Origin: a virus
DNA: 27,884 nucleotides
IMG/VR virus record: IMGVR_UViG_3300048772_000021
Coordinates: 1 to 27,884 of that record
Reading direction: 5' to 3' (one strand)
Positions 59-25,222 of the stretch are shown piece by piece. The notes under the pieces were generated by a model, which was given only the letters and a program-made list of their open reading frames with translations, did not search any database and was not told where the DNA came from. Made by a program: the position numbers and the translations under genes. Numbering within the stretch: the stretch's first letter is position 1; each line of letters starts with the position of its first letter.

Positions 59-2947
59 TCAACGTCCCAAGGGATGGGCCAAAACAAACCGCCGAAGTGG
101 GCCAAGCCAAGTTGCCAAACTCACTGACGAGTCAACGACGGGGCTCACGCCGATCTGCACCTGTACTTGACCGATGTCAGTCCCATTAGGAATCGTGTAC
201 GACGCGATGCCGCCAGCGGGTACTGTTCCCGGTGCTGGCGCAGTCTCCACCGCGTTCCATGTTTCACCACCATTTAGGGAGATAGTTATTGTGTACGTTC
301 CACCGGAGCCAACAGAGGCTAAGTTGCCGCGTGAGACAGTCAATCCAGCAGTGACGCCAGACAAGACAGTGCCTGTCGGAGCGAAGCCGCTATAAATGAT
401 GTCTGTGCTGAGTGTCTCGGAGACTGATGAGATATAGCAGCCATACATGGCGGCGAAGGATGTTGCATTAGGGGCATAGAGTGCTGTGGGATTGCTCGTG
501 TAGAACGCAGCACCATTCTGTCGGTCAGCGTAGGCGGACGGATACCACGGGCCTGTCGCTGCGATTCCTCCTCCTAATACCGCCGTAACAATACTGCCAA
601 TGAGGAAGTAACCTGCCTTGTTCATGAAGTCGGCTGTGTTCTGCGTGGCAATCACTGTGACTGCATCACCCGCGAACGTCGTGTCGATGTAGTACACGTA
701 GTAAAGCTGATTCTGATTCAGCCCACTGAGCGGGTAATTGTTGGGAGCTACGGAGATGTTTTGATTGCCGATGGGGGCAATGAACGGCGTGCCGAAGATT
801 GAAGCAGTTCCGCTGCTGTAAGCGATGGATGTGAGACTCATCTCAGCAAGCGCGTCCTGAGTCAGTACCGTCAGCACCAAGCTGACAGTGAAGCCGTCTA
901 GTTCGTCCCACGCAGAAGATGCCCCATTAGCTCGTACTGAGCGGATGCGGAAGTTGTACGTCTGCCCGGAGATGACGTTGCCGACGAACGCACTGTTGAG
1001 ACTGACATCGACAGTCCCGCCGTCGAGCCATGCCCCTGCTGAGCCTCCAGGTGGTGCTAACTGATACTGAATCTGAATCTGCCTAGTGAGCACGTCAAGC
1101 GGCGTGTTCCATTGCACCTCAACACGGGGATGGACAACGCCGTCGAGTCCGACCAGGGCCGTCGCAAGTGAGGATGTCAACGACATGTCTGTCGGCGGTG
1201 CGGGAGTGAGGCTCTGCTGTGACGGTGTTGCCGGTACGTCGTACACGGTCAACTCTTCCGTTGTGCTCCATTCGTAGACGGACTGGTCAGCTTCAATCAC
1301 GCCGACGTTAAGAGTGATCGCCATTGCCTTTTCATCACTCATGCCGGTGCTCATCTGCTCACACTGAAACCCGACGCTTATGACTTCGAGTGTCTTTTCC
1401 GCCCAGCCAAACTCAGGGAATGTGAACTGCAATGTGTCGCACGGCTGGATGCCATAGGACGGAAGACCCATCGTGAACGTGCCGGAACCCTGCTGACGAT
1501 TGCGCAGCAGCGTGATCTTCGCGACGCGTTGTGCCTGAGTGACAGACAGAACGGTCGGCAGATTGAGTTCCTTGACTAGCTGACGACCGCCGTCAGCGGT
1601 CAGATATTGGTCGGACGCGTAACCATGCAGCGTATCGCAGGCATACTCCGGGTAGCTAGTCTGCTGAAATGCAAAATTGAAATTGTTCTGAATCTGCCCG
1701 TTGTAGAACCCATTGGCGTCATACAGGTTGCCAGCTACGTTGAAAGGGTAATTCGGAGCGCAGTACGTTCCACGCACTCTGTTAAACAGGTCGCGGATGC
1801 TCCGATATGGCTTCCACTGCGGCGCTGCTGTGAGCGCGTTCTCATCAAATGTGAACGATGGTCCTTGCCAGTACGCAGGCCAGACGTACCACTCGCCGCC
1901 GATACGAGACAGACGACCAGCAGCACCCGTCATCATGGTAGCGAGTACATCTCCTGGGCCAGTAGAAGTGTCGTAGTGATGGTTCGTGACGTATTGAGCT
2001 TCGTATGTCGCCGTAGTTGAGGACAGTGCCCCGACCTCAACGAGTTCGTCACACACGTTCGCGGCGGCGATAAGTTGAGCTTGATTGACGCTGCTGTCAC
2101 CGAGACCGAAGACAGGGTCTGTCAGTACGTCACCACAGATGAGTGCCCAATTCTGTGTAAAGCCAGTTGTGCTAGTGCGTGGGTCGAAGATGTTGCACTT
2201 GCCATTGACCGTGAATCGAATCTCCGGTGGTGCCGGGAACAGTGAGGAGTTCGCTTCGATCTTCAGATAGACATAGCAGCAGCCACCCAGCCACGGTGCT
2301 CCGCCGTGCCCGTCTGGAGCCCAGTTGCCATCGTTCGCCGTGAGTCCACCGATGACGCTGGTGGGAGTTCCGGTCCACGTTGCATTGCCGGGGGAGTTCG
2401 TCCCGCTTATTGGGTCTGTCTGGTCACCGAATCGAGCTTCGCAGTAGATGCCTGAATGACCTGTGCCGCCAAAATTGTATTGTTGACCGTCTGGCCCTGT
2501 GTGGTTGTTGCCGTCAGCTATCCCACCAAAGCCGACGCCGTTACGAACGCACCAGCCTACACCTGAACCCTGCCAGTACACTTGCCGACCGTCGAGGTAT
2601 AAATTCTCAATGTTGTAGCATTCGTGACCCGCGAGGACGATGACGTAGTTGTATTGGTCGTGGCTGGAGCCGGTCGTGCTCTCATAGATAGTCACGCCAC
2701 CGACGCGCTGCTGTCCGTAGATGACCTGTCGAAACGCAGCAGCTTGGCGGGTCGTGATGTTTATGCCCCGATTGCTCATCAGAGCGCCAGCGATTGCAGC
2801 GGCCTCCATTGAGATTCCGCCCAGCACTAGGGCTTCCATCGTTTTGTCAAACAGAGGCGACGCAATCAGTGCCGGGTCGAAGAACGCTGCTGCTCCCATT
2901 CCGACAGCACCGGCCAATAACGCTGCACCTTCGACAGCTTTACTCAT
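59..2947 (-). CDS. Tail tip / host-specificity protein (J-like)
   Basis: 962 residues, last visible gene of the tail operon. The N-terminal 60 residues are Ala/Gly-rich and hydrophobic, followed by a segment containing RQAAAFRQVIYGQQRVGG, a pattern seen in central tail-tip proteins of siphoviruses. A fibronectin type III-like domain lies at roughly 585-690 (HPRVEVQWNTPLD through YNFRIRSVRANG). The C-terminal third is beta-rich and Gly/Thr-rich, as expected for a receptor-binding region. By family, such proteins close the tail tip and contact the host receptor. It starts four bases after the stop of the preceding NlpC/P60-like gene, with GGAGTG serving as ribosome site inside that gene's end. 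The last 18 or so residues (after SVSLATW) are basic and unlike the rest. They are encoded across two TGGGCC motifs, so the natural C-terminus may have been replaced. Tail-tip role is inferred from position, length and motifs. Confidence 0.75.
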   Translation of the reverse strand: MSKAVEGAALLAGAVGMGAAAFFDPALIASPLFDKTMEALVLGGISMEAAAIAGALMSNRGINITTRQAAAFRQVIYGQQRVGGVTIYESTTGSSHDQYNYVIVLAGHECYNIENLYLDGRQVYWQGSGVGWCVRNGVGFGGIADGNNHTGPDGQQYNFGGTGHSGIYCEARFGDQTDPISGTNSPGNATWTGTPTSVIGGLTANDGNWAPDGHGGAPWLGGCCYVYLKIEANSSLFPAPPEIRFTVNGKCNIFDPRTSTTGFTQNWALICGDVLTDPVFGLGDSSVNQAQLIAAANVCDELVEVGALSSTTATYEAQYVTNHHYDTSTGPGDVLATMMTGAAGRLSRIGGEWYVWPAYWQGPSFTFDENALTAAPQWKPYRSIRDLFNRVRGTYCAPNYPFNVAGNLYDANGFYNGQIQNNFNFAFQQTSYPEYACDTLHGYASDQYLTADGGRQLVKELNLPTVLSVTQAQRVAKITLLRNRQQGSGTFTMGLPSYGIQPCDTLQFTFPEFGWAEKTLEVISVGFQCEQMSTGMSDEKAMAITLNVGVIEADQSVYEWSTTEELTVYDVPATPSQQSLTPAPPTDMSLTSSLATALVGLDGVVHPRVEVQWNTPLDVLTRQIQIQYQLAPPGGSAGAWLDGGTVDVSLNSAFVGNVISGQTYNFRIRSVRANGASSAWDELDGFTVSLVLTVLTQDALAEMSLTSIAYSSGTASIFGTPFIAPIGNQNISVAPNNYPLSGLNQNQLYYVYYIDTTFAGDAVTVIATQNTADFMNKAGYFLIGSIVTAVLGGGIAATGPWYPSAYADRQNGAAFYTSNPTALYAPNATSFAAMYGCYISSVSETLSTDIIYSGFAPTGTVLSGVTAGLTVSRGNLASVGSGGTYTITISLNGGETWNAVETAPAPGTVPAGGIASYTIPNGTDIGQVQVQIGVSPVVDSSVSLATWLGPLRRFVLAHPLGR
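75..105. repeat. Two TGGGCCAA motifs 23 bases apart
   Basis: TGGGCCAA occurs at 75-82 and 98-105. The 23-base period matches that of the four GATGTGGGCC copies at the opposite end of the window (27773-27852), and the orientation is the same. Only six bases (TGGGCC) are shared between the two ends, so this is not a demonstrated attachment-site duplication. Confidence 0.3.
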
Positions 2948-2950
2948 AAC

Positions 2951-3391
2951 TCAAACACTCCAAGCTCTGACAACTGAGGTGATAGGCAAGCGCACTAGCC
3001 CTGTCTGGCTGACGCTGATGACGTGACGGCCATTGAGATGGACAACGCCAGCGATGAGTGTGTCCCCGTTCTTGATGACTACGAGGTCACCGCGTCTAGC
3101 CATCAGCGGGTATGCATACTCATGAAGCCCATGCTTGTTCGCGCAGTATGCAGCGGCATCAGCAACAGTCGTACCCCCGGTGATCGTCTTGATGAGTGCG
3201 AACGCTGACGCTTCGTCGTGATACTTACCGCGAAAGTCTTCAGCGATGTCTACTCCGGTAAACGATTGAATTGCGTTCGCCGGGTACATGCAGCAGTCAT
3301 TGACTCCCCACTCAAAATTGTCTCTGACGTGTTTTCTTAAATGGGAATCCAACTCACGGGTTGCCCAGTGTTGCGTTCTAGTTAGTGGCAT
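2951..3391 (-). CDS. Tail assembly protein, DUF6950/NlpC-P60-like
   Basis: 146 residues. The motif FEWGVNDCCMYPANAI (residues 26-41) has the W-G-x-x-D-C pattern of DUF6950 phage proteins, distant relatives of NlpC/P60 cysteine peptidases. The Cys after Asp would be the nucleophile position. Later parts fit the same family: DIAEDFRGKYHDE, ARRGDLVVI and a GVVHLNGRHV segment that would supply the His. In lambda-like tails the equivalent slot is occupied by gpK, a tail-tip assembly protein that may also cut peptidoglycan. The start is supported by GGGGA eight bases upstream and by close packing against the neighbouring gene. Peptidase activity is an inference. Confidence 0.7.
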   Translation of the reverse strand: MPLTRTQHWATRELDSHLRKHVRDNFEWGVNDCCMYPANAIQSFTGVDIAEDFRGKYHDEASAFALIKTITGGTTVADAAAYCANKHGLHEYAYPLMARRGDLVVIKNGDTLIAGVVHLNGRHVISVSQTGLVRLPITSVVRAWSV

Positions 3392-3395
3392 AGTG

Positions 3396-3950
3396 TTATC
3401 CCCAAACGAGGGCGAGGTCGTTCAGTTGTTCAACCCATCCGAATGCGGTGTCCGTCGGGTAATAAAGTCGTTGGTCGGCTGATGTGTAGCGCCGACAGGA
3501 TGCACGTCCGAGGTCCAGCATTCGCGATTCAAGTGCGAGGGAGATGGACACGGTATCCGTGCCGGGAGTGACTACTGGCACGTCCACACATCCACTGAAT
3601 TGCAGATAGGGCGTACCGATGAGCACGCATTGAGGAGTTACGAATCCGAGCCAAATCATTGCGGGTGCGCCGGGTTGAATATCCGTCAGGCACTCCGCAA
3701 GCAACACGGGATCGATACCGTTGAGAGTGACACTCGTTCCATCCGCGTTGATCTCGATGCCTTCGTTGATAACGCCGACAGAGCCGAGCGAACCCACACC
3801 CGTGTACGTCTGTGCATCCCAAACGAGGTCACCCGGCCCCGACCAGATGTACTTAGTCTCTGAGCGAAACGTCAGCATCGCCATGCGAACGGGGTACACG
3901 AGACTCGCTTGCATCGCGGTTTCGAGCGTGCTGTCTAACTCGCGTGGCAT
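3396..3950 (-). CDS. Minor tail protein (gpL-like by position)
   Basis: 184 residues starting MPRELDST. I chose this ATG because it overlaps the upstream stop as TAATG and has GGAG eight bases before it; an ORF 20 codons longer would run deep into the upstream gene. The protein has a beta-rich body and ends with a Cys-containing SCRRYTSADQ segment followed by aromatic residues. This C-terminal pattern is seen in siphovirus minor tail proteins in the lambda gpL position. It sits between another minor tail protein and the DUF6950 protein, as gpL precedes gpK. The function is assigned by synteny rather than by a decisive motif. Confidence 0.55.
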   Translation of the reverse strand: MPRELDSTLETAMQASLVYPVRMAMLTFRSETKYIWSGPGDLVWDAQTYTGVGSLGSVGVINEGIEINADGTSVTLNGIDPVLLAECLTDIQPGAPAMIWLGFVTPQCVLIGTPYLQFSGCVDVPVVTPGTDTVSISLALESRMLDLGRASCRRYTSADQRLYYPTDTAFGWVEQLNDLALVWG

Positions 3951-4770: not shown

Positions 4771-7605
4771 CTATGGCCCCAGCGTGTATTCGACCCAGCT
4801 TGTCTGTGCTGAGATGGAGTTGTCTCTCCACGCCGATAGAAACGTGTTTGGCATCTGAATGCCAGTAAGCGTACCTACCGACCCTCCGCTCATTGCAAAA
4901 CCAGATATTTGCTGTATGGGAGGCATGACTATATCTGACATTAAGTGCGCGGTGCCGGTACCCCCGGCTGTCCACACGACCGTCACAAACTTGTTATGGC
5001 CGGTAGGATTAGACACCCCATAAACGGGAGGCGGAGTGGGCAGACCTGTACTTCCAACCATGTACCGCTGGGCTGGTGCAGTGAATAAATTGGCCGACAT
5101 AGTGGCAGGTAGGCTGCTTGTGTATTCGTTCCAATGAACAACACTGGTACCAGCAGCAGTGGGAACATTGTAGTAATATCCAGCGGGTACTATGAAAAAA
5201 GCTGAATTTGAACCTTCAATAGAGTTCATCTCGTACACAAGCGTTGTCGGAGTGGAGGATGAGTCACTATCGACCGAGATGGTTCCATTTCCGTAAATGC
5301 AAGTCGTCACGACCTCTACTATCATGAACCCACTACCAGTGTTGTGGTAGGTTGTGCCCAATGATCGAGAACCGACCAGATCGCCACTCTGCGTCATCGT
5401 GCCGGTATTGAAGGTATATTCGTTCCACGATCCAAAGGATGAACCAGTTATCTTGTAATAATTACCGGGCATCACCACAAACTCTGCCGGATTTCCTGCA
5501 CCGGAATAAGTCTGTAGTGCCCATACCTGAGTCGTGGGAGATGCGGAACTGTCCGTCACAGCGGCTACGGAGTTAGAGTTGTCGGCATACCACACCAGCA
5601 TCGGATAGCTGGAGGTATTGTGATAGACCGTACTCAGAAGCCGTGTGGAACTGTTGTAGGTTGCCTGACTCAATACGGCTGGGTTAGTGCTGCCGCCCCC
5701 GTAAGTCGTCCACGTACCACTAGGCGGACAATAGGTGATAGCACCGTTTTGTGAATGGACCCACGCACCAACTCGGGGGCAAGAACCCGTGGGGGCGGTT
5801 GCGGGGCCAAGGATACCACCGGGGACTAGAAACGACCCATCATCGTAAAAGACGAAGTTGTTGGTGTCGTTCACCCACTGGGTGTAGTTGTTGGTCTGGA
5901 TAAGACCCATAAAAACCGAGTTGGATGTCGAACCGTCCCCGGAATAATTGAGGCACTCTACCCAGGCATCCTGAGCAGCATTTTGAGTCCCCAGTATGCG
6001 GCACATGCTCCTGCCGGTTGAAAGACTTGGAATGTACGTTCCCTCTGGTGCTCCACCTACGGAGTTAGTGCCCACCGTAGTAGACGTAACCGCATTCATA
6101 TTGTTCACATAGATTGCGTGGCGCAGTGTGTCTACTGTCAAATCCTCTGTGTCTTGCGCAGCATCCGTGACCACAAACGCGTGATAGCTGTCCGCCAACG
6201 GGGTATGGACCTCGCCACGAGTGTTTCCGCCCACGGCGCTGGCGCCGAAGTAGGAATAGCTCTTGGCCTTGGTCGCAGATGCCTGTGACGACATAGCCTC
6301 ATTCAACGTCTGTGTGTAGGGCTGCACCCCACCCGGAGCCATACCTCCGTTGGTCGCAATCAGGTTGGTGTCAATGGGGTTGCTCAGCACCGCACCCACA
6401 TCCGCAAGCGTGTCCCAATACTTCCCATTGCTTGCTCCCGTTGTATTGCCGGTAGTCTTGCCCTGCGCATAGAGCCAGTTGTTTACCACATTCGTGTTGG
6501 TATAGGCCGTCGCGCAGGAACTGCTGTTGTACGGCGCGGCGGTCGCCGTTCCCTGCACGACAATCCACCCGTCCGTATGCGCCTTTGCCCAGATAGACTG
6601 CAAGTGCCCTTCAATCGTTGCGGCCGTCGCGCATCCTTGCAGGTCGTTGTTGAAGATGTCATTGATGATGAGGTACTCGGGGTTGTTTCCCGTCGCTGCT
6701 GGACTGATGGAGTGGAACAAGGCCGTATAGTCGGAGTCGATATTCGCGACGTAATAGCTTGCGTCGGTGACAATCTGGAAACTACCGTGACCCTTGAAGA
6801 AAGGCTGCTGCATCACCTGCTGAGCGAGGAAATAGTTTGCCTTCTGTACAGTCCCACCTGTGATTGTCGCCGTGCTCGGATAGTTGAACTCAAACTGTGT
6901 GCTGCTAAGGCCGGTCGAGAGCACCTGGAAGAACCCATAGGTTGTGCTCACCGTGCCGAATGGAGCGGGTGTGGCCGGCATCCCCACCATCCCCTGATAA
7001 ATCCAATCACCCGCCGACAACCCATTCGTCCCGCTGTTGGTGATGGTGCAGACCGTCGCGTTGCAACTCCCACCAGTCACAGTGATCTGCGGGGCCAGCA
7101 CTTGCGTGTCATCACCCATCACCGAATTGCCGGTAAAGACGTAGAGTGTGTTCGACGGGTTGTACTGTACTCCTCCGCCTCCGCTGGGCGTTGCCGCCGT
7201 GTAGCATGGATTCGGCGTACTTGCGGTCGTGTACTGTATCTGCTGTCCGTTGGTCGGAGTAAATCCAGTGCAGAACGGTACAGATTTTAGTCCTTGCACT
7301 GTAGCCGCTTGACTTCCACTCCCCGCTCCGGCTGCTACGTCTCCTGTCAACTGCGTGATGCCACTTCCTCCACCCAACACTACCCAGTCACTCGGACTGG
7401 AGGCGGGCGAGTAGTTGAGATTATTAGGCACGAGAGAGATGTAGGTAACGCCGCCAGATACTACCATCTCATTGAGGTTGTATTTTACCGACGATGACCA
7501 TGTGCCCATGTAGGTAACGGCGGCACGAGTCTGGGCGCAGACATGCAGATCCCCTGCAAGCGTGAGGAGAGAGAGAAACAGAAAGAATTTTGCGAAACTG
7601 CGCAT
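4771..7605 (-). CDS. Tail fibre with Sec signal, degenerate SGNH-like domain and three C-terminal repeats
   Basis: 944 residues. I start at the ATG with AAAGGA eight bases upstream; a TTG lies one codon earlier. Residues 1-25 are a classic signal peptide (basic, then FFLFLSLLTLAG, cleavage probable after VCA). Residues 31-80 resemble a carbohydrate-binding module of the CBM5/12 type (TYMGTWSSSVKYNLNEMV then SDWVVL). Residues about 150-440 recall an SGNH hydrolase: GNS in place of GDS near 160, IINDIFNND near 315 and GGVQP near 427 where active enzymes have D-G-V-H-P. A separate beta segment of about 80 residues is inserted after the first block. Loss of the Asp and His suggests a binding rather than a cutting domain. 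From about 655 there are three repeats of about 85 residues ending W(N/V)EYT. Position after the tape measure and small appendage gene supports a receptor-binding fibre. The SGNH reading is tentative. Confidence 0.65.
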   Translation of the reverse strand: MRSFAKFFLFLSLLTLAGDLHVCAQTRAAVTYMGTWSSSVKYNLNEMVVSGGVTYISLVPNNLNYSPASSPSDWVVLGGGSGITQLTGDVAAGAGSGSQAATVQGLKSVPFCTGFTPTNGQQIQYTTASTPNPCYTAATPSGGGGVQYNPSNTLYVFTGNSVMGDDTQVLAPQITVTGGSCNATVCTITNSGTNGLSAGDWIYQGMVGMPATPAPFGTVSTTYGFFQVLSTGLSSTQFEFNYPSTATITGGTVQKANYFLAQQVMQQPFFKGHGSFQIVTDASYYVANIDSDYTALFHSISPAATGNNPEYLIINDIFNNDLQGCATAATIEGHLQSIWAKAHTDGWIVVQGTATAAPYNSSSCATAYTNTNVVNNWLYAQGKTTGNTTGASNGKYWDTLADVGAVLSNPIDTNLIATNGGMAPGGVQPYTQTLNEAMSSQASATKAKSYSYFGASAVGGNTRGEVHTPLADSYHAFVVTDAAQDTEDLTVDTLRHAIYVNNMNAVTSTTVGTNSVGGAPEGTYIPSLSTGRSMCRILGTQNAAQDAWVECLNYSGDGSTSNSVFMGLIQTNNYTQWVNDTNNFVFYDDGSFLVPGGILGPATAPTGSCPRVGAWVHSQNGAITYCPPSGTWTTYGGGSTNPAVLSQATYNSSTRLLSTVYHNTSSYPMLVWYADNSNSVAAVTDSSASPTTQVWALQTYSGAGNPAEFVVMPGNYYKITGSSFGSWNEYTFNTGTMTQSGDLVGSRSLGTTYHNTGSGFMIVEVVTTCIYGNGTISVDSDSSSTPTTLVYEMNSIEGSNSAFFIVPAGYYYNVPTAAGTSVVHWNEYTSSLPATMSANLFTAPAQRYMVGSTGLPTPPPVYGVSNPTGHNKFVTVVWTAGGTGTAHLMSDIVMPPIQQISGFAMSGGSVGTLTGIQMPNTFLSAWRDNSISAQTSWVEYTLGP

Positions 7606-7622
7606 CAATGATGTCCTTTTGA

Positions 7623-8135
7623 TTAAGCTGGGTTCCAGACGAGACCACCGTTGGCTATGGTGACCAGATAGTGAGTGCCGGTGACTGCGTCTATCAGGGT
7701 TATGCCGAACGCGGTTCCGACTGGGCCGGTCTGGATTGTGACCATTGTGCCGAGGCTTGGTTCGTAGGTATCGAAGTTGAACGTCGCACCGGTCGGTTGG
7801 ATGGTGTATCCGGGGCCGAGTATGTTCGCACCCGTCAACGGATCGATGACGCTTACGGCATACCCGATGTTGGCCGGGTACGTGAGCGACACGTCAGGAA
7901 GCTGAGGAGCTATACCAGAGGAGTCAGCGGTGATGACGCCGCTGAGGACGGGGAAGCAGAATGGTTTAGAGACCATCTGTCCGTTGCCGGTACCACCGAC
8001 GCGGAAGCTAATCGGCTGGTTGGTCAAGGTCGAGACGGCTTGAAACTGAATCTCACCGGATGCAAGCAACTGGCCATTCAAGCTGCCGTAGATGTTATTA
8101 GCCGTGATGAGGGTGAAGCCTGATGCTGCTGGCAT
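7623..8135 (-). CDS. Small tail appendage / fibre-base protein
   Basis: 170 residues, almost wholly beta-type, with GVITADSSGIAPQLPDVSLTYPANIGY-like central text and many Gly/Thr turns. The start has a strong GGGAGAG ribosome site six bases upstream. It lies between tape measure and fibre with 14 bases before the fibre start region, so the two are co-transcribed. Proteins of this size at this place often form the base or collar to which a fibre attaches. I do not recognise a named family, so the role is inferred from position and composition. Confidence 0.45.
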   Translation of the reverse strand: MPAASGFTLITANNIYGSLNGQLLASGEIQFQAVSTLTNQPISFRVGGTGNGQMVSKPFCFPVLSGVITADSSGIAPQLPDVSLTYPANIGYAVSVIDPLTGANILGPGYTIQPTGATFNFDTYEPSLGTMVTIQTGPVGTAFGITLIDAVTGTHYLVTIANGGLVWNPA

Positions 8136-17913: not shown

Positions 17914-19626
17914 CTACATCACGAACGGCGTAAAGTGTTTTTTCTTTGGAGCTACAGGCACCACCATTGCCCTGCTCAATGCACAGATCAACGCGGATAT
18001 TCCGTCTATCTTCTCTGCTGACTTTTCTTTATTCGGCTTCACATTAGAATTAGCGTCGGAGTCCACCACGACGTTACTTGCCATCCATCGCAAGACAGGG
18101 TTGTCTAAGTGTGTGAGGTCGTGAGTCAGAATCAATTCGAGCAATCGCTTTGTCGGTCCATGCAGTGATGGAAAGCCTTGTCTCAGGGGGCTAACTACGA
18201 AGCCATGATCCTGTAGCCAGGTTGCTGTCTCCGTGCAGTTCCACGGATCATAGGCGATTTCTTTTATGTCGTAAGTCTTGGATAGCTCAATAATCTTGAG
18301 CCGGATGGCTTCATAGTCAATCACATTTCCACTCGTTAGGTCGAATAGACTATGTGAGGCCCACATGTCGTATGGAACTCGATCCCTCTGACATCGCTTG
18401 ACAATGTTGTCCTTTGGTAGAAAGAAATGGGGTAGAACAACCCACTTTGTTCTTTCGCCGTAGGGGGGGAACAATAAAACAAATGCACTGATGTCCGTCG
18501 TGGTCGATAAGTCTAATCCACCGAAACAAGGTTGCTTTATTAGTGACTCAAGATCGATGGGCGCATTGCATTTCTTCCACTCATCCATCGGAAAGTAAGC
18601 AACGGATGTCTGAGTCCAAATTCCAAACCTAACCCGGAGGACCTCGTTGAGACTTGCAGGATCACCCGCTGCTTGGTTGAGCAGTGCGGCTAAATCCTTT
18701 TCTCGAACACTTACACCAAGATTCGGATTCGCTTTTATCCAAGTTGCTGGGTCGGTGTAATCATCCCCGTCATCGAGGCAACACACCCAGGCAAACCAGT
18801 CGTCAGCTTGCAGCGTTCCCGTCAGAACCTTCTCGCTGTATGCGTGCTGACGTTTGCAGACTGACTCCTCACCGGAACCCGCTGTCGTGATGACTATCAG
18901 GATGGGTGAGTCACGCTTACCGAGTGCGTTGACGAGTCCCGTCCACATCACTTCAGCACCGTAACCCCATGCGTGCAGTTCGTCGGCGACGAATGCTTGT
19001 GGACGTTTGCCCTCAAGAGAACCGTAGTTTGCAGCGAGTGGTTGGAACTTTGATGCCGTACACGGAACGTGTAGATTGTTCGTGTGCGACTTGATGCGTT
19101 TGGCCAGTGCCGGTGACTTCTTCACCATCAACACAGCGTCGTCAAACACAACCTTCGCCTGTGTCTTATCCACGGCAACGCTGTAGACTTCGCTACCAGC
19201 TTCACCAACTCCAATTAGCTCGTAGAGTGCAAGTGCAGATGCCCAAGTCGATTTCCCGTTGCCTTTTCCGCACTCACAATAAGCGATGCGAAAGCGGCGG
19301 AATCCTGTATCTGCCCAGCGCCATCCGTAGAGGATGTAGAGCATGGCCTGTTGCCATGGCTCCAGCTTGATGGGCTGTCCCTCAAGCTCACCGCGAAGGT
19401 GACAACAGAAGGACTCTACAAACTGAATGACTCTCAGTCCTTGTTGCGGACTGAATATCAGGTTGCGGAGATGCCCCTCTGCCAAGTCCTGGCGATGACG
19501 CTCACAAGCTAGTCTGACGAGCTGGCCTACGACAATCTTGTTGTCCAGTACGTCAGCGACGTACTGCTCTGGGATGTTAAATGTGCTCACACTAAAGGGT
19601 TCGGAAGTCGAATTACTTGACTTCAC
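17914..19626 (-). CDS. Terminase large subunit
   Basis: 570 residues from a GTG that overlaps the small terminase gene by 14 bases; a second GTG at 19590 (VSTFNIPEQY) is a fair alternative because the first 12 residues look unconserved. Walker A is CGKGNGKS at 119-126, Walker B is VADE at 213-216, and the coupling TTAGSG follows at 247. The RuvC-like nuclease carries Asp in GGLDLSTTTD (about 372), AYDPW (460) and KIDGISAL (541). This is the HK97-like terminase family that packages and cuts genomic DNA. The junction repeat at 19594-19621 overlaps the start region, which leaves the exact start uncertain. Confidence 0.95.
   Translation of the reverse strand: MKSSNSTSEPFSVSTFNIPEQYVADVLDNKIVVGQLVRLACERHRQDLAEGHLRNLIFSPQQGLRVIQFVESFCCHLRGELEGQPIKLEPWQQAMLYILYGWRWADTGFRRFRIAYCECGKGNGKSTWASALALYELIGVGEAGSEVYSVAVDKTQAKVVFDDAVLMVKKSPALAKRIKSHTNNLHVPCTASKFQPLAANYGSLEGKRPQAFVADELHAWGYGAEVMWTGLVNALGKRDSPILIVITTAGSGEESVCKRQHAYSEKVLTGTLQADDWFAWVCCLDDGDDYTDPATWIKANPNLGVSVREKDLAALLNQAAGDPASLNEVLRVRFGIWTQTSVAYFPMDEWKKCNAPIDLESLIKQPCFGGLDLSTTTDISAFVLLFPPYGERTKWVVLPHFFLPKDNIVKRCQRDRVPYDMWASHSLFDLTSGNVIDYEAIRLKIIELSKTYDIKEIAYDPWNCTETATWLQDHGFVVSPLRQGFPSLHGPTKRLLELILTHDLTHLDNPVLRWMASNVVVDSDANSNVKPNKEKSAEKIDGISALICALSRAMVVPVAPKKKHFTPFVM
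19594..19621. repeat. Junction repeat copy at the terminase start
   Basis: AAAGGGTTCGGAAGTCG then AATTACTTGAC. The end can also form GAAGTC/GACTTC pairing. It shares the AAAGG..GGAAGTCG..TTACT(T/G) skeleton with 4654-4690 and 8153-8189, although here it lies in coding overlap between the two terminase genes. Confidence 0.45.
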
Positions 19627-20101
19627 TCGTTATGTCGTCGGCTCCAATGCCCTGCATGAACTCTGTGAATGCGTCATCGCCGGACGATGACGCAACCTGT
19701 ATCCGGCTGCGTGATGCTGGTGTCATCCCAAACTCAACGAGAAATTTACGCATCTGGTCGAGTGCCGTGTTCGCAATGCCAACGTATGGGTTTTGGATCG
19801 GGAAGCCCGACTTCGGCGACTTAATAACAGCACCATATTTCTGAACATTTGTTTCTGCATCCATCCACCGAGACCACGAAGCGCAATAGGCGCTTAATGC
19901 GGCACGATCAACCGATGTAAGCAGGTTAAGGCTGACAAGCTCAACGCTGATACGCTTCCATTCACGCTTTGCAGCATCGTCCAAGTGAGATGGGCAGCGA
20001 GGTACACCAGTAGGGTGCGGCTCCCGATGGTTGAGTGGCCGATGCCCAGGATTTCCTCTGAGTTCTTTTAAGCTGCTTGGGAGTGGTCGGCGTCCTGCCA
20101 T
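19613..20101 (-). CDS. Terminase small subunit (P27 family)
   Basis: 162 residues. The N-terminus MAGRRPLPSSLKELRGNPGHRPL is the standard opening of P27-type small terminases. Next come a CPSHLDDAAKREWKRISVEL helix, LLTSVDRAALSAYCASWSRW and the NPYVGIANTALDQMRKFLVEFGMTPASRSR core. It recognises the packaging site in phage DNA and hands it to the large subunit. It overlaps the upstream methyltransferase by 34 bases and the large subunit by 14. The methyltransferase is therefore part of the same transcript as packaging genes. Confidence 0.95.
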   Translation of the reverse strand: MAGRRPLPSSLKELRGNPGHRPLNHREPHPTGVPRCPSHLDDAAKREWKRISVELVSLNLLTSVDRAALSAYCASWSRWMDAETNVQKYGAVIKSPKSGFPIQNPYVGIANTALDQMRKFLVEFGMTPASRSRIQVASSSGDDAFTEFMQGIGADDITSEVK

Positions 20102-21024
20102 GTAGTCATACCTATTTCGTTCAATCGTGCTTTGGCTATGTCGATATACTCAGCAGATAACTCAATGCCAACTACATCATTCCAACCGGCTTGTAATCCA
20201 CCAATCATCTCGGAACCTGAACCGGAGAACGGCACTAGGAGCCGCTGTGTATTGGGTGAGGATTGGGGCAGGATGAGCTTCGCCAAGTGCCCTGTGAGGG
20301 TCAGAGGCTTAACGGTGGGGTGTGTGTTGTGGTTGATCGCCCGTTGTTGGTCAGGCTGGTTGCCGAGGCCATTGCCGTGCGTCGGGCGCGCCTTGAGGGG
20401 TAGAGACTCACACCCTGCATCCCGTTCCTTGTGGTTTGCCTTTGCACAGTAGAAATACCGGCTCCAGGATTCATCCTCAAAGCTCTCATCAATAATGGTA
20501 TTGGCTGGCCAGCGTCCCAATGTGCTCATCTCTTGCTGATATGCTGGCAATACTTCTGGTCGCTCTATCTGACCGAATCCAGTCCATCCCTGATAGCGGT
20601 TAATGGGTATTGGCTCGCTCTCGATTCTGCATCCATCTATATTGAGGGGTAGAATCTTCCTGGCCGGTTTACGCGCTAAGATGATAGGTTCATAGCTGGG
20701 CTTAAGACAGGCTTTGGACTTTGGGAATCCTTGAGCGTATAGCCACATTAAGCAGTCACGGATCTCAAAGCCAGCATCCTCTATTGCACAAGTGAGCCGG
20801 TGATAGGTTCGAGTTCCACCGAATGCTAGTAAGTAAGCACCGGGAGCTAGAACACGGTACATCTCTTTCCACAACGCAGTATTGAAAGCTATGCCGGATG
20901 AGTCCCACTGTTTACCCATAAAGCCAAGTTCATACGGAGGATCACATAGACTACCAGCAAAGGAATCTGAGGGCAGTGTCGGAAGTTTGTCAAGGACGTT
21001 GCCTTGTATGAGCCGCACACTCAC
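20068..21024 (-). CDS. DNA methyltransferase, beta class (N6-adenine/N4-cytosine)
   Basis: 318 residues from a GTG that directly follows the glycosyltransferase stop. Motif IV DPPY is at 28-31; motif X (NTHPTVKPLTLTGHLAKL) at 233-250 and motif I (PFSGSG) at 265-270 follow. The order IV, target domain, X, I defines the beta class. DPPY favours N6-adenine; N4-cytosine is possible. It would methylate phage DNA in a sequence-specific way, for protection from restriction or to mark DNA for packaging. The region between about 125 and 230 is the likely recognition domain. It overlaps the small terminase gene by 34 bases and is part of the ParB-glycosyltransferase-methyltransferase block. No partner restriction enzyme is adjacent, so an orphan enzyme is likely. 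Confidence 0.92.
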   Translation of the reverse strand: MSVRLIQGNVLDKLPTLPSDSFAGSLCDPPYELGFMGKQWDSSGIAFNTALWKEMYRVLAPGAYLLAFGGTRTYHRLTCAIEDAGFEIRDCLMWLYAQGFPKSKACLKPSYEPIILARKPARKILPLNIDGCRIESEPIPINRYQGWTGFGQIERPEVLPAYQQEMSTLGRWPANTIIDESFEDESWSRYFYCAKANHKERDAGCESLPLKARPTHGNGLGNQPDQQRAINHNTHPTVKPLTLTGHLAKLILPQSSPNTQRLLVPFSGSGSEMIGGLQAGWNDVVGIELSAEYIDIAKARLNEIGMTTWQDADHSQAA

Positions 21025-21897
21025 TTAATGTTTCTCCGTTACTAGCGTCAGCCCGTAGTCGTTGTACTCAATCGAGATGCCCTCTTTGCGTTTCAAAGGG
21101 GTCTTAAACTGCGTGTAATCGACAAAATGATGTGGACGACCATACTTCTCTATGAGTCGCGCATACTCCGGGTATTCATTGACAAGCATGATGCTTTTTG
21201 GATATGTCCCTTCTTGTGAGTAAAAGACCTTATCGTTGCCGCCCTTGACAGTCTGTGTGGCCATTTTGTCCTGCTGGTATGCATTAAATTGCACGGTACA
21301 CCACTTATCACGGAGCAAGTCCAATGAAAGAATTGTGTCTTCGTTGTAGCGTCCACGCCAGCGATATGGAATGTCATTGCGAATCAAGTTACAAGAGTAG
21401 ATTCGAGTATTCGCCAAGAATGGTGGGCGCTTGTATTTCCGTGGGAGGAACATCCAGTAGTTAGGTCCTGCCATAGCGACGTTCTCATATCGAAGAACAA
21501 AGTCCTCCATGACTCGGAAGAACGCGCCGGATAATACCTCGTATCTGAGGTTGTTATTCCAGCGTACAAATTGACGGATGTTGTCATCCATCACCCAATG
21601 CCAGTCGTAACCCATCTGGATTGAGGTATCCCAAATGAAGTTTCGTGCAGCACCGGGGCCGACGCTCTTGCACAGACCGAGATTATCGAGTGTCTGGTAA
21701 TCCTTTTTATATTCATGATTGAGCACGATGATGTGTTCTTTGGGGATTACCGCCGCATATTGGCTGTACTCCTGTGGCTCAACGACTGCATACCACTCTT
21801 TGATTCCCATTCGTTGCAGAGCCTTAATGGTCATCCTGCTATCCGAGCGGGACAGAGTTGGAACAAATATAGGGTACCGAGGCTGAATATCAGTCAT
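21025..21897 (-). CDS. TET-associated-type glycosyltransferase (TAGT)
   Basis: 290 residues. A GT-A-type fold is suggested by RYPIFVPTLSRSDS at 7-20, VVEPQEY at 38-44, GPGAARNFIWDTSI at 80-93 and the metal-site DD in WVMDDNIRQF (104-105). A late NED at 185-187 is the probable base. This set is what I recall for the TAGT family from work on phage base-modification systems, where these enzymes add sugars to hydroxymethylated pyrimidines in DNA. No TET/JBP dioxygenase or other hydroxylase is visible here, so the acceptor is unknown: DNA made by a gene elsewhere, or another molecule. The start overlaps the ParB-like gene by eight bases and the stop abuts the methyltransferase GTG. Confidence 0.75.
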   Translation of the reverse strand: MTDIQPRYPIFVPTLSRSDSRMTIKALQRMGIKEWYAVVEPQEYSQYAAVIPKEHIIVLNHEYKKDYQTLDNLGLCKSVGPGAARNFIWDTSIQMGYDWHWVMDDNIRQFVRWNNNLRYEVLSGAFFRVMEDFVLRYENVAMAGPNYWMFLPRKYKRPPFLANTRIYSCNLIRNDIPYRWRGRYNEDTILSLDLLRDKWCTVQFNAYQQDKMATQTVKGGNDKVFYSQEGTYPKSIMLVNEYPEYARLIEKYGRPHHFVDYTQFKTPLKRKEGISIEYNDYGLTLVTEKH

Positions 21898-22510
21898 TGA
21901 TAATGTACTTTGTGGCCTTTGCCACGATGGATTGCTCTTTTGGATACCAGACGTATTTCGTTTTTGAGGTAATGGTCTGTTGAATCAGTTCAGCGAAATC
22001 CTGTACGTCCTGCTCAGAATGAAAATGTATAGTCAGGTGGCGCTTTGCTACATCTTCATTGCAAGCCTCTGGCATTCCTTCCCACTCAACCTCTGCATTC
22101 CCCGCGCCCTGATCCTCTGTGCCGGTAAGCTCTGCATCGGTAAAGAAAGGCTTCAGATCCATTTCGGTTGAAAGCTCACCGAGGATGGCGGAGTCCCACT
22201 GAAGTCCGACCTCTGATACACGATTGTCGGCGATAGCTAAGCCACGAGACTTTGGATCATCCATAGACAAGTCAGTGCGCTGCACAACAACAAGTTCGGT
22301 GCCGTTCGTGGGAACGAGGATTATATCGTTGATACCAGCGGCGGCGGCTTGCTCTGCTGTCTTGTTTCCGGCAATGATGATGCCATCTTTGTCCACCAAG
22401 ATGGAGCGTCCAGCACCGAACTGCTGAAGAGAAGTAGCGAGCGTCTTGCGACCACGCGGAGTGCCTTGGTTGGCATTGTGTGGGTCGAGTTGTAGGTCAG
22501 ATAGCTTCAT
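21890..22510 (-). CDS. ParB-like nuclease-domain protein
   Basis: 206 residues. The ParB N-terminal fold is shown by DLQLDPHNANQGTPRGRKTL and GAGRSILVDKDGIIIAGNKTAEQA (32-54). The C-terminal third has WEGMPEACNEDVAKRHLTIHFHSE.. and TKYVWYPKE, a second domain often found on phage ParB-like proteins next to methyltransferases or modification enzymes. In such systems ParB domains bind DNA, and some nick it or use nucleotides; which applies here is unknown. Upstream lies the decamer CGAAATGAAG repeated at 22505-22514 and 22530-22539. The first copy holds a 12-codon leader frame that overlaps the start of this gene. Confidence 0.8.
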   Translation of the reverse strand: MKLSDLQLDPHNANQGTPRGRKTLATSLQQFGAGRSILVDKDGIIIAGNKTAEQAAAAGINDIILVPTNGTELVVVQRTDLSMDDPKSRGLAIADNRVSEVGLQWDSAILGELSTEMDLKPFFTDAELTGTEDQGAGNAEVEWEGMPEACNEDVAKRHLTIHFHSEQDVQDFAELIQQTITSKTKYVWYPKEQSIVAKATKYIIND

Positions 22511-22655: not shown

Positions 22656-23051
22656 CTAGAGTCGTTTACTGTCGATTGGTGTGGTATCTGATCGCTGTGT
22701 CTTCTTGTCTTGTTCTGTCTTAGCTCTATGGCATGGACGACACAGGCTTTGGAGATTGTCGAGGTCTAGGCGATGCTCTGGTGCTGTTGTTAGTGGAATT
22801 ACATGATCTACGTCAGCGGCGACTGTTGCTCGTCCGTCTGCTAGACAATGAACACATAAATACTTGTCTCGTCCAAGAGCTTGACTTCTTATTCGACGCC
22901 AATCCCAGTCATAACCACGAGAAGCTGCTGAGCCGCGCCATTTGTAAACGGTGTGCTTATATTGCTGGTGGGCCTTGCAGAGTCCATTCTTAGTGCGGAC
23001 TAGCTCTGGACAACCGTTGTATTTACAGGGGCGCGCTGGTGCTGTGGGCAT
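22656..23051 (-). CDS. HNH endonuclease (HK97 gp74-like)
   Basis: 131 residues. It has a Cys/His zinc knuckle near the start (CKYNGC then CKAHQQYKH), a second pair CVHC and CRPCH, and the HNH core VDHVIPL..RLDLDNLQSLCRPCHRAK. Such nucleases lie beside terminases in many HK97-like phages and are needed for efficient packaging. Here the modification block separates it from the terminase genes. The ATG has only a weak ribosome site (ACGGCAAC) and is preceded at 23093-23127 by nested inverted repeats (GCATAC/GTATGC around ATAAC/GTTAT) that could be an operator or RNA stem. Confidence 0.88.
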   Translation of the reverse strand: MPTAPARPCKYNGCPELVRTKNGLCKAHQQYKHTVYKWRGSAASRGYDWDWRRIRSQALGRDKYLCVHCLADGRATVAADVDHVIPLTTAPEHRLDLDNLQSLCRPCHRAKTEQDKKTQRSDTTPIDSKRL

Positions 23052-24639: not shown

Positions 24640-24894
24640 TTACTTTGCGTTGCTCGTCAAAGGTGCGATGGCTTCTAAGGCATCGTCTGCCGCCTGTCCC
24701 GCATCTTCTATTGCAGAGCTGGCTTCCCGAAACTTAGCTGCCTTTTCGGTGTCACCCGTTATTTCGAGTTTCTCTGCGATGTCAGACAGATTGCAGGACA
24801 AATCCTCGAAATTGTTAAGCACCTCTGCTTTTTCCTTGAATGAACACAACGCCTTTTCTACCCACTCTGCCATTGTCTCTTTTGCCTTTGTCAT
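24640..24894 (-). CDS. Small acidic helical protein, unknown
   Basis: 84 residues. The start was chosen at the ATG with a perfect AAAGGAGG site; the longer frame begins inside that site's leader. The protein is almost all helix (AEWVEKALCSFKEKAEVLNNFEDLSC.. then KAAKFREASSAIEDAG..), acidic and without membrane segments or known motifs. It is the last gene before the terminator. Its strong ribosome site says it is well expressed. A role in lysogeny or early takeover is only a guess from position. Confidence 0.65.
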   Translation of the reverse strand: MTKAKETMAEWVEKALCSFKEKAEVLNNFEDLSCNLSDIAEKLEITGDTEKAAKFREASSAIEDAGQAADDALEAIAPLTSNAK

Positions 24895-24937
24895 GTTGCC
24901 CTCCTTTGGGCATTCCAGCATCTCCGCTGGGCGGTTA

Positions 24938-25222
24938 TCACTCTGCGGGATGATCTTCGATGTACTTCAGGTTGGCAGCGATGGTGCCGGTCTGCTCAAC
25001 CAACTCATCAAGGTCGTCAACATTCGACTCCTCGATGTACTTGAGGTCGGCAGCGAGAAACCCGGTCTGCTCCAGCAGTGCTTCGAGATCGTTGTTATTT
25101 TCATCAATGGCCTTAAGATTGGCTACGATGCGGTCGGTAAGTTCGGCTAACTCCCTCGCTTCTTCAAGGGACGTAACACCGAACTGCTTCAGTACATCAA
25201 GATGTTCCATTTCTCTACTCAT
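24938..25222 (-). CDS. Small repeat protein with three heptad-like units
   Basis: 94 residues. Three units of about 23-25 residues follow each other from residue 24: ELAELTDRIVANLKAIDEN.., LEALLEQTGFLAADLKYIEES.., LDELVEQTGTIAANLKYIEDH... They share L-x-x-L-x-x-x-T/x-x-x-A-x-L-K-x-I-E/D, suggesting a coiled coil or a small bundle. The DNA of the last two units is also similar (CGATGTACTT..AGGT..GGCAGCGA), so the gene grew by recent tandem duplication. The ATGA overlap with the upstream winged-helix gene implies coupled translation. I recognise no family. Confidence 0.65.
   Translation of the reverse strand: MSREMEHLDVLKQFGVTSLEEARELAELTDRIVANLKAIDENNNDLEALLEQTGFLAADLKYIEESNVDDLDELVEQTGTIAANLKYIEDHPAE

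Follow-up and report, generated by a model that had tools for sequence, protein, structure and literature searches.

In the TET/5mYOX-C5MT-GT hypermodification clusters, a glycosyltransferase belonging to a small operon acts on phage DNA, as we propose here for a locus of a soil prophage. According to a recent study, the characterised enzyme of family PF20691 (TAGT) is the beta-glucosyl-HMC-alpha-glucosyltransferase Ggt of phage T6, which acts on glucosylated 5hmC, and 288 of 753 phage genomes carry solitary TAGTs, with no alpha/beta-glucosyltransferase, that were already flagged as possible novel transferases (PMC13216743). Separately, ParB-CTPase-fold domains have been described in fusions to phage methyltransferases, DUF4417 and DUF3850 (PMC12704722), and ParBc has been found near CmoX (PMC12783734). 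Neither of these two papers mentions a glycosyltransferase, and our literature search returned nothing direct on the combination of ParB and TAGT.

The window analysed here is the whole IMG/VR virus record IMGVR_UViG_3300048772_000021 (27,884 bp), a fragment that ends in a tail gene on one side and an integrase on the other and is probably an incomplete prophage. Three genes on its minus strand are joined as the initial annotation described them: the ORF of a ParB-like protein (21890..22510) overlaps the TAGT ORF (21025..21897) by 8 bases, the GTG start of a methyltransferase gene (20068..21024) directly abuts the TAGT stop, and the methyltransferase gene overlaps by 34 bases the gene of the terminase small subunit TerS (19613..20101, minus strand; PF05119), the downstream neighbour in the window clade. 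The upstream neighbour, an HNH endonuclease gene (22656..23051, minus strand), is kept in loci L001-L005 and L053. All three ORFs have relatives and are under purifying selection, with dN/dS against L002 of about 0.09 for TAGT, 0.19 for ParB and 0.18 for the methyltransferase, and are therefore not chance reading frames. The methyltransferase is a beta-class N6A/N4C enzyme with a DPPY motif (PF01555, 67.7 bits) and PF00145 has no match in the window, in agreement with the initial view that the only methyltransferase here is not a C5 enzyme. Elsewhere in the window, two adjoining small acidic proteins are encoded at 24640-25222, of which the first has no match in PHROGs and the second contains an internal repeat (LEALLEQTGFLAADLKYIEE / LDELVEQTGTIAANLKYIED), and products of 945 and 170 amino acids encoded amid the tail genes (4771-8135) are also without a PHROG match.

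The assignment of the 21025-21897 product to the TAGT family is upheld by a PF20691 score of 142.5 bits (cut-off 27.5) across the full profile (1-205) and by an AlphaFold model (pLDDT 93.1, pTM 0.91) with a GT-A fold. Comparisons of this model with Foldseek and VIA-align gave BcsA as the best match (Z 14.5, rmsd 3.8 over 200 residues), with further GT-A matches to GalNAc-T2, POMGnT1 and GnT-I, and the invariant TAGT residues D104-D105, E186-D187-T188 and H257 are kept. T6 Ggt shares the Pfam family and is a DNA glycosyltransferase with a GT-A fold (PMC13216743). Unlike the window enzyme, Ggt adjoins the gp42 dCMP hydroxymethylase and scores only 35.8 bits against PF20691; it has no BLASTP match to the window TAGT, and the partner domain described below has no match in the 30 kb around it. 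Since Ggt is remote and without this domain, and since TET is rare around the window clade, the family name is misleading here. The window enzyme resembles the solitary TAGTs in occurring without another DNA glucosyltransferase; for these, the available text reports neither a partner domain nor a ParB adaptor, nor the lack of a hydroxylase (PMC13216743).

TAGT has a conserved partner that the initial annotation overlooked: a domain, here called PART, at the C-terminus of the ParB-like protein. It comprises the last ~65 residues of the window protein (residues ~137-202; 21893..22114, minus strand), and an alignment of TAGT-adjacent ParB-like proteins shows conservation at this end, with the motif W-x-x-MPE...hF....F..L..Q.IT.KTK.hW.P. 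Against Pfam and PDB sequences PART gave chance-level matches only, and weak matches of ParB/PART to the ManC beta-helix and DUF1801 were treated as noise. A PART profile matched the ORF upstream of TAGT, or the TAGT N-terminus itself, in nearly all loci. After dereplication at 90%, PART lay directly upstream of, or was fused to, 64 of 72 TAGT sequences in a sample that was seeded from the window clade and leaves remote TAGTs such as T6 Ggt outside. Thirty followed a ParB-PART protein, 12 followed PART without a recognised ParB-N, 21 were fused (defined by an N-terminal extension of more than 60 residues) and one (L084) was a single-ORF ParB-PART-TAGT fusion; the other eight can be explained, since three are the second copy of a tandem, three lie at contig ends, one has PART 1.1 kb upstream and one has a divergent PART that can be read by eye. 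Judged by the well-supported branches, the label for the fused form must have changed six times or more, so the fusion was repeatedly gained or lost, and the occurrence of PART without a recognised ParB-N shows that ParB is not always needed. Variant arrangements include PART as a protein of its own that contains an additional, weaker copy of the domain (L007:9531-9992), PART behind a non-ParB N-terminus (L077:200-877) and ParB-N and PART split into separate ORFs (L087:4079-4808). Tandem TAGT copies are present in L010, L029, L035, L049, L063 and L070 and suggest the addition of successive sugars or different specificities.

Comparison of related loci showed that the core of the cassette is ParB plus TAGT and that the methyltransferase is accessory. 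Among viral contigs the gene order is ParB-TAGT-MTase-TerS in L002 and L004 vs ParB-TAGT-TerS in L003 and L005, and the methyltransferase is also missing from the KBS 96 prophage (L053), with ParB and TAGT remaining paired in all of these. KBS 96 was the sole match among 396 Acidobacteriota genomes searched and is the nearest fully sequenced relative of the window phage. Its prophage, at ~5,510,000-5,541,000 of the scaffold, is syntenic with the window phage and has a serine recombinase that adjoins a gene resembling, by eye, comM/yifB. Identity to the window proteins is 71% for TAGT, 60% for TerS and 56% for ParB vs 32% for TerL and 28% for portal, and the ParB-TAGT module stands ahead of differing terminases. 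Because the pair is conserved well above the level of TerL and portal and the methyltransferase is missing in relatives, ParB and TAGT form the unit; close relatives without the methyltransferase rule it out as a core component, and the earlier suggestion of a modification route made of ParB plus methyltransferase was not borne out.

The ParB-like call rests on PHROGs (phrog_620, 6e-19), Pfam ParB_N having no match in the window protein; the ParB-N fold spans residues 1-~129. In the window protein and its close relatives Box II reads GNKT, so that the GxxR arginine necessary for NTP binding (PMC12704722) is missing. A canonical ParB also has an HTH and a C-terminal dimer domain; the structural matches of the window protein to ParB lie mostly over residues 1-73 (best Z 7.8, rmsd 3.4 over 73), and Foldseek returned no match to the window model at E<0.001. 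On this evidence a role as a partition protein is disfavoured. With the full-length ParB protein as query, we retrieved L110-L114, five contigs of sister phages that appear to carry a single sequence and count as one case, with the same locus (HNH, ParB, TerS, TerL, portal). Their ParB-N is 66% identical to that of the window and ~80% identical to that of L003 over the first 120 residues (by eye, window counts), but an unrelated tail stands where PART would be, and the place of TAGT is taken by genes for an ABC-ATPase/GNAT protein and for a formyltransferase. This locus, exemplified by the ABC-ATPase/GNAT fusion and formyltransferase at L114:5550-8933, is a candidate for a separate hypermodification operon, and its GNAT operon may resemble Mom-type modification. 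Elsewhere ParB-N is fused to N6/N4 methyltransferases (PMC12704722, PMC12783734). We infer that ParB-N serves modification enzymes as an exchangeable adaptor, with its tail selecting the enzyme. As in the published cases (PMC12704722, PMC12783734), ParB-N is here added to a phage modification enzyme; the window clade differs from them in its glycosyltransferase partner and in having GNKT instead of GxxR.

The search for the source of a hydroxylated base was largely negative. In the window there is no match to TET, the thymidylate synthase (TS) family (PF00303), C5-methyltransferase (PF00145), 2OG-Fe_3 or alpha-glucosyltransferase (PF11440), consistent with the initial statement that no dioxygenase or hydroxymethylase is visible. 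Such an absence is weak evidence in a fragment, and complete relatives provide a stronger test. Whole-genome searches of KBS 96, Rhodovulum and Marivivens, and searches of the near-complete Vibrio phages 1.076.O and 1.124.O, gave neither TET nor PF00303; as control, the TS-family search detected gp42 in T4 and T6. TET was absent from all 38 viral or phage records and present in one of 46 further genomes or phages, Winogradskyella UBA3174 (L071), where it stands beside TAGT and serves as a positive control; the generic 2OG-Fe_3 family was absent from 17 phage records. The TS family gave one full-length match each in Erwinia, Pantoea, Chryseobacterium and Xenophilus, presumably ThyA, and one gene in the 60-kb viral contig G017 (L024). 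Genes annotated as thymidylate synthase occur in the large phages Ah1, Kuja, henriette and POP12, and nothing was drawn from these since some could be hydroxymethylases. The alpha-glucosyltransferase family PF11440 matched in T4 and T6 but had no match in the window, KBS 96, Rhodovulum, Marivivens, 1.076.O, 1.124.O or Ah1.

C5-methyltransferases were found 2 kb from TAGT in Rhodovulum (L065) and at 2016-3482 in an Erwinia prophage (L055), none being seen in the stretch read of its Pantoea sister (L056), and only megabases away from the prophage in KBS 96. In the two sister prophages, MptE-like, GT9-like and methyltransferase genes lie upstream of ParB (L055 and L056, 7196-9256). The locus thus differs from the TET/5mYOX-C5MT-GT clusters in having neither C5-methyltransferase nor TET in the window or near the KBS 96 prophage copy. 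A constant TET or C5-methyltransferase beside TAGT, which the initial annotation regarded as the sign of a standard system, is ruled out across the records and genomes searched (TET in 0/38 and 1/46; KBS 96 negative). Its option of a hydroxylase gene outside the window is disfavoured for the immediate neighbourhood, as several complete relatives show no such gene, although TET does adjoin TAGT in Winogradskyella.

Our preferred reading, to which we assign a probability of roughly 0.55, is a two-component module for the glycosylation of phage DNA, formed by the ParB-PART adaptor and TAGT, with the methyltransferase as an optional layer. It has to be weighed against the classic route, in which TAGT would glycosylate 5hmC or 5hmU supplied by a hydroxylase or hydroxymethylase that either belongs to the host or has escaped recognition. 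The family name and the T6 Ggt precedent (PMC13216743) speak for this route, as do the TET beside TAGT in L071, the C5-methyltransferases near TAGT in L055 and L065, and the TS-family genes of the large phages Kuja, henriette and PTm1, which could be hydroxymethylases. It is nevertheless rather unlikely for the window, given that TET, TS-family and 2OG-Fe_3 genes are absent from most small-phage records searched (G017 having its one TS-family gene), that neither TET nor TS occurs anywhere in the genomes of three hosts, the nearest relative among them, and that the C5-methyltransferase of Erwinia is not seen in the stretch read of the Pantoea sister.

A still less probable explanation is that the glycosyltransferase decorates a capsid, tail or host protein to which ParB/PART recruits it; the locus does adjoin terminase and portal genes, protein glycosyltransferases are among the GT-A relatives of TAGT, and glycosyltransferase genes near portal and protease genes in other phages have been proposed to modify the capsid (PMC4351075). 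Against this stand the association of ParB-N with DNA-modifying enzymes in other contexts, the same-locus swap for the ABC-ATPase/GNAT operon, and the action of the characterised PF20691 enzyme on DNA (PMC13216743). That ParB and the methyltransferase form the functional unit, TAGT being incidental, would fit the overlapping or abutting arrangement of all three genes and the commonness of ParB-methyltransferase fusions in phages, but it is very improbable in view of the persistence of ParB-PART-TAGT without the methyltransferase in L003, L005 and KBS 96 and of the fusion of ParB with TAGT, rather than with this methyltransferase, in L084.

Under the two-component DNA-glycosylation reading, ParB-N, no longer a partition protein, would engage DNA or the replication/packaging machinery, PART would dock or position TAGT, and TAGT would use a nucleotide-sugar to glycosylate the phage DNA ahead of its packaging; glycosylation would probably protect the DNA from host nucleases, and the methyltransferase would add a separate, optional layer of DNA methylation. 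DNA is the probable acceptor in view of the enzyme family, the adaptor and the locus swap, and the accepting base need not be a 5-hydroxymethylpyrimidine supplied by TET or by a hydroxymethylase in one of the known ways. An unrecognised hydroxylase could be present, and the TET in Winogradskyella and the C5-methyltransferases near TAGT in Erwinia and Rhodovulum indicate that some TAGT members may use the classic route. More tentatively, and with doubt prevailing, PART-linked TAGTs might glycosylate DNA that neither TET nor a hydroxymethylase has provided with a 5-hydroxymethyl group. The sugar could, for instance, be attached straight to an exocyclic amine or to a hydroxyl introduced by an unknown enzyme, and ParB-PART would be an exchangeable targeting subunit common to several DNA hypermodification systems.

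The puzzle of solitary TAGTs was known in outline; new here are their partner domain, the swap of the adaptor and the search for hydroxylases across whole genomes. These unexplained phage enzymes can now be assigned a conserved partner domain, in an architecture that lends itself to testing, and complete genomes are identified that have no known source of the textbook acceptor base. If the TAGTs indeed glycosylate DNA, a new hydroxylation route or a new sugar-base linkage must exist. Moreover, the swap at this locus suggests a general role for ParB-N domains as exchangeable adaptors of the enzymes with which phages modify DNA, something that the recent ParB and CmoX papers left open.
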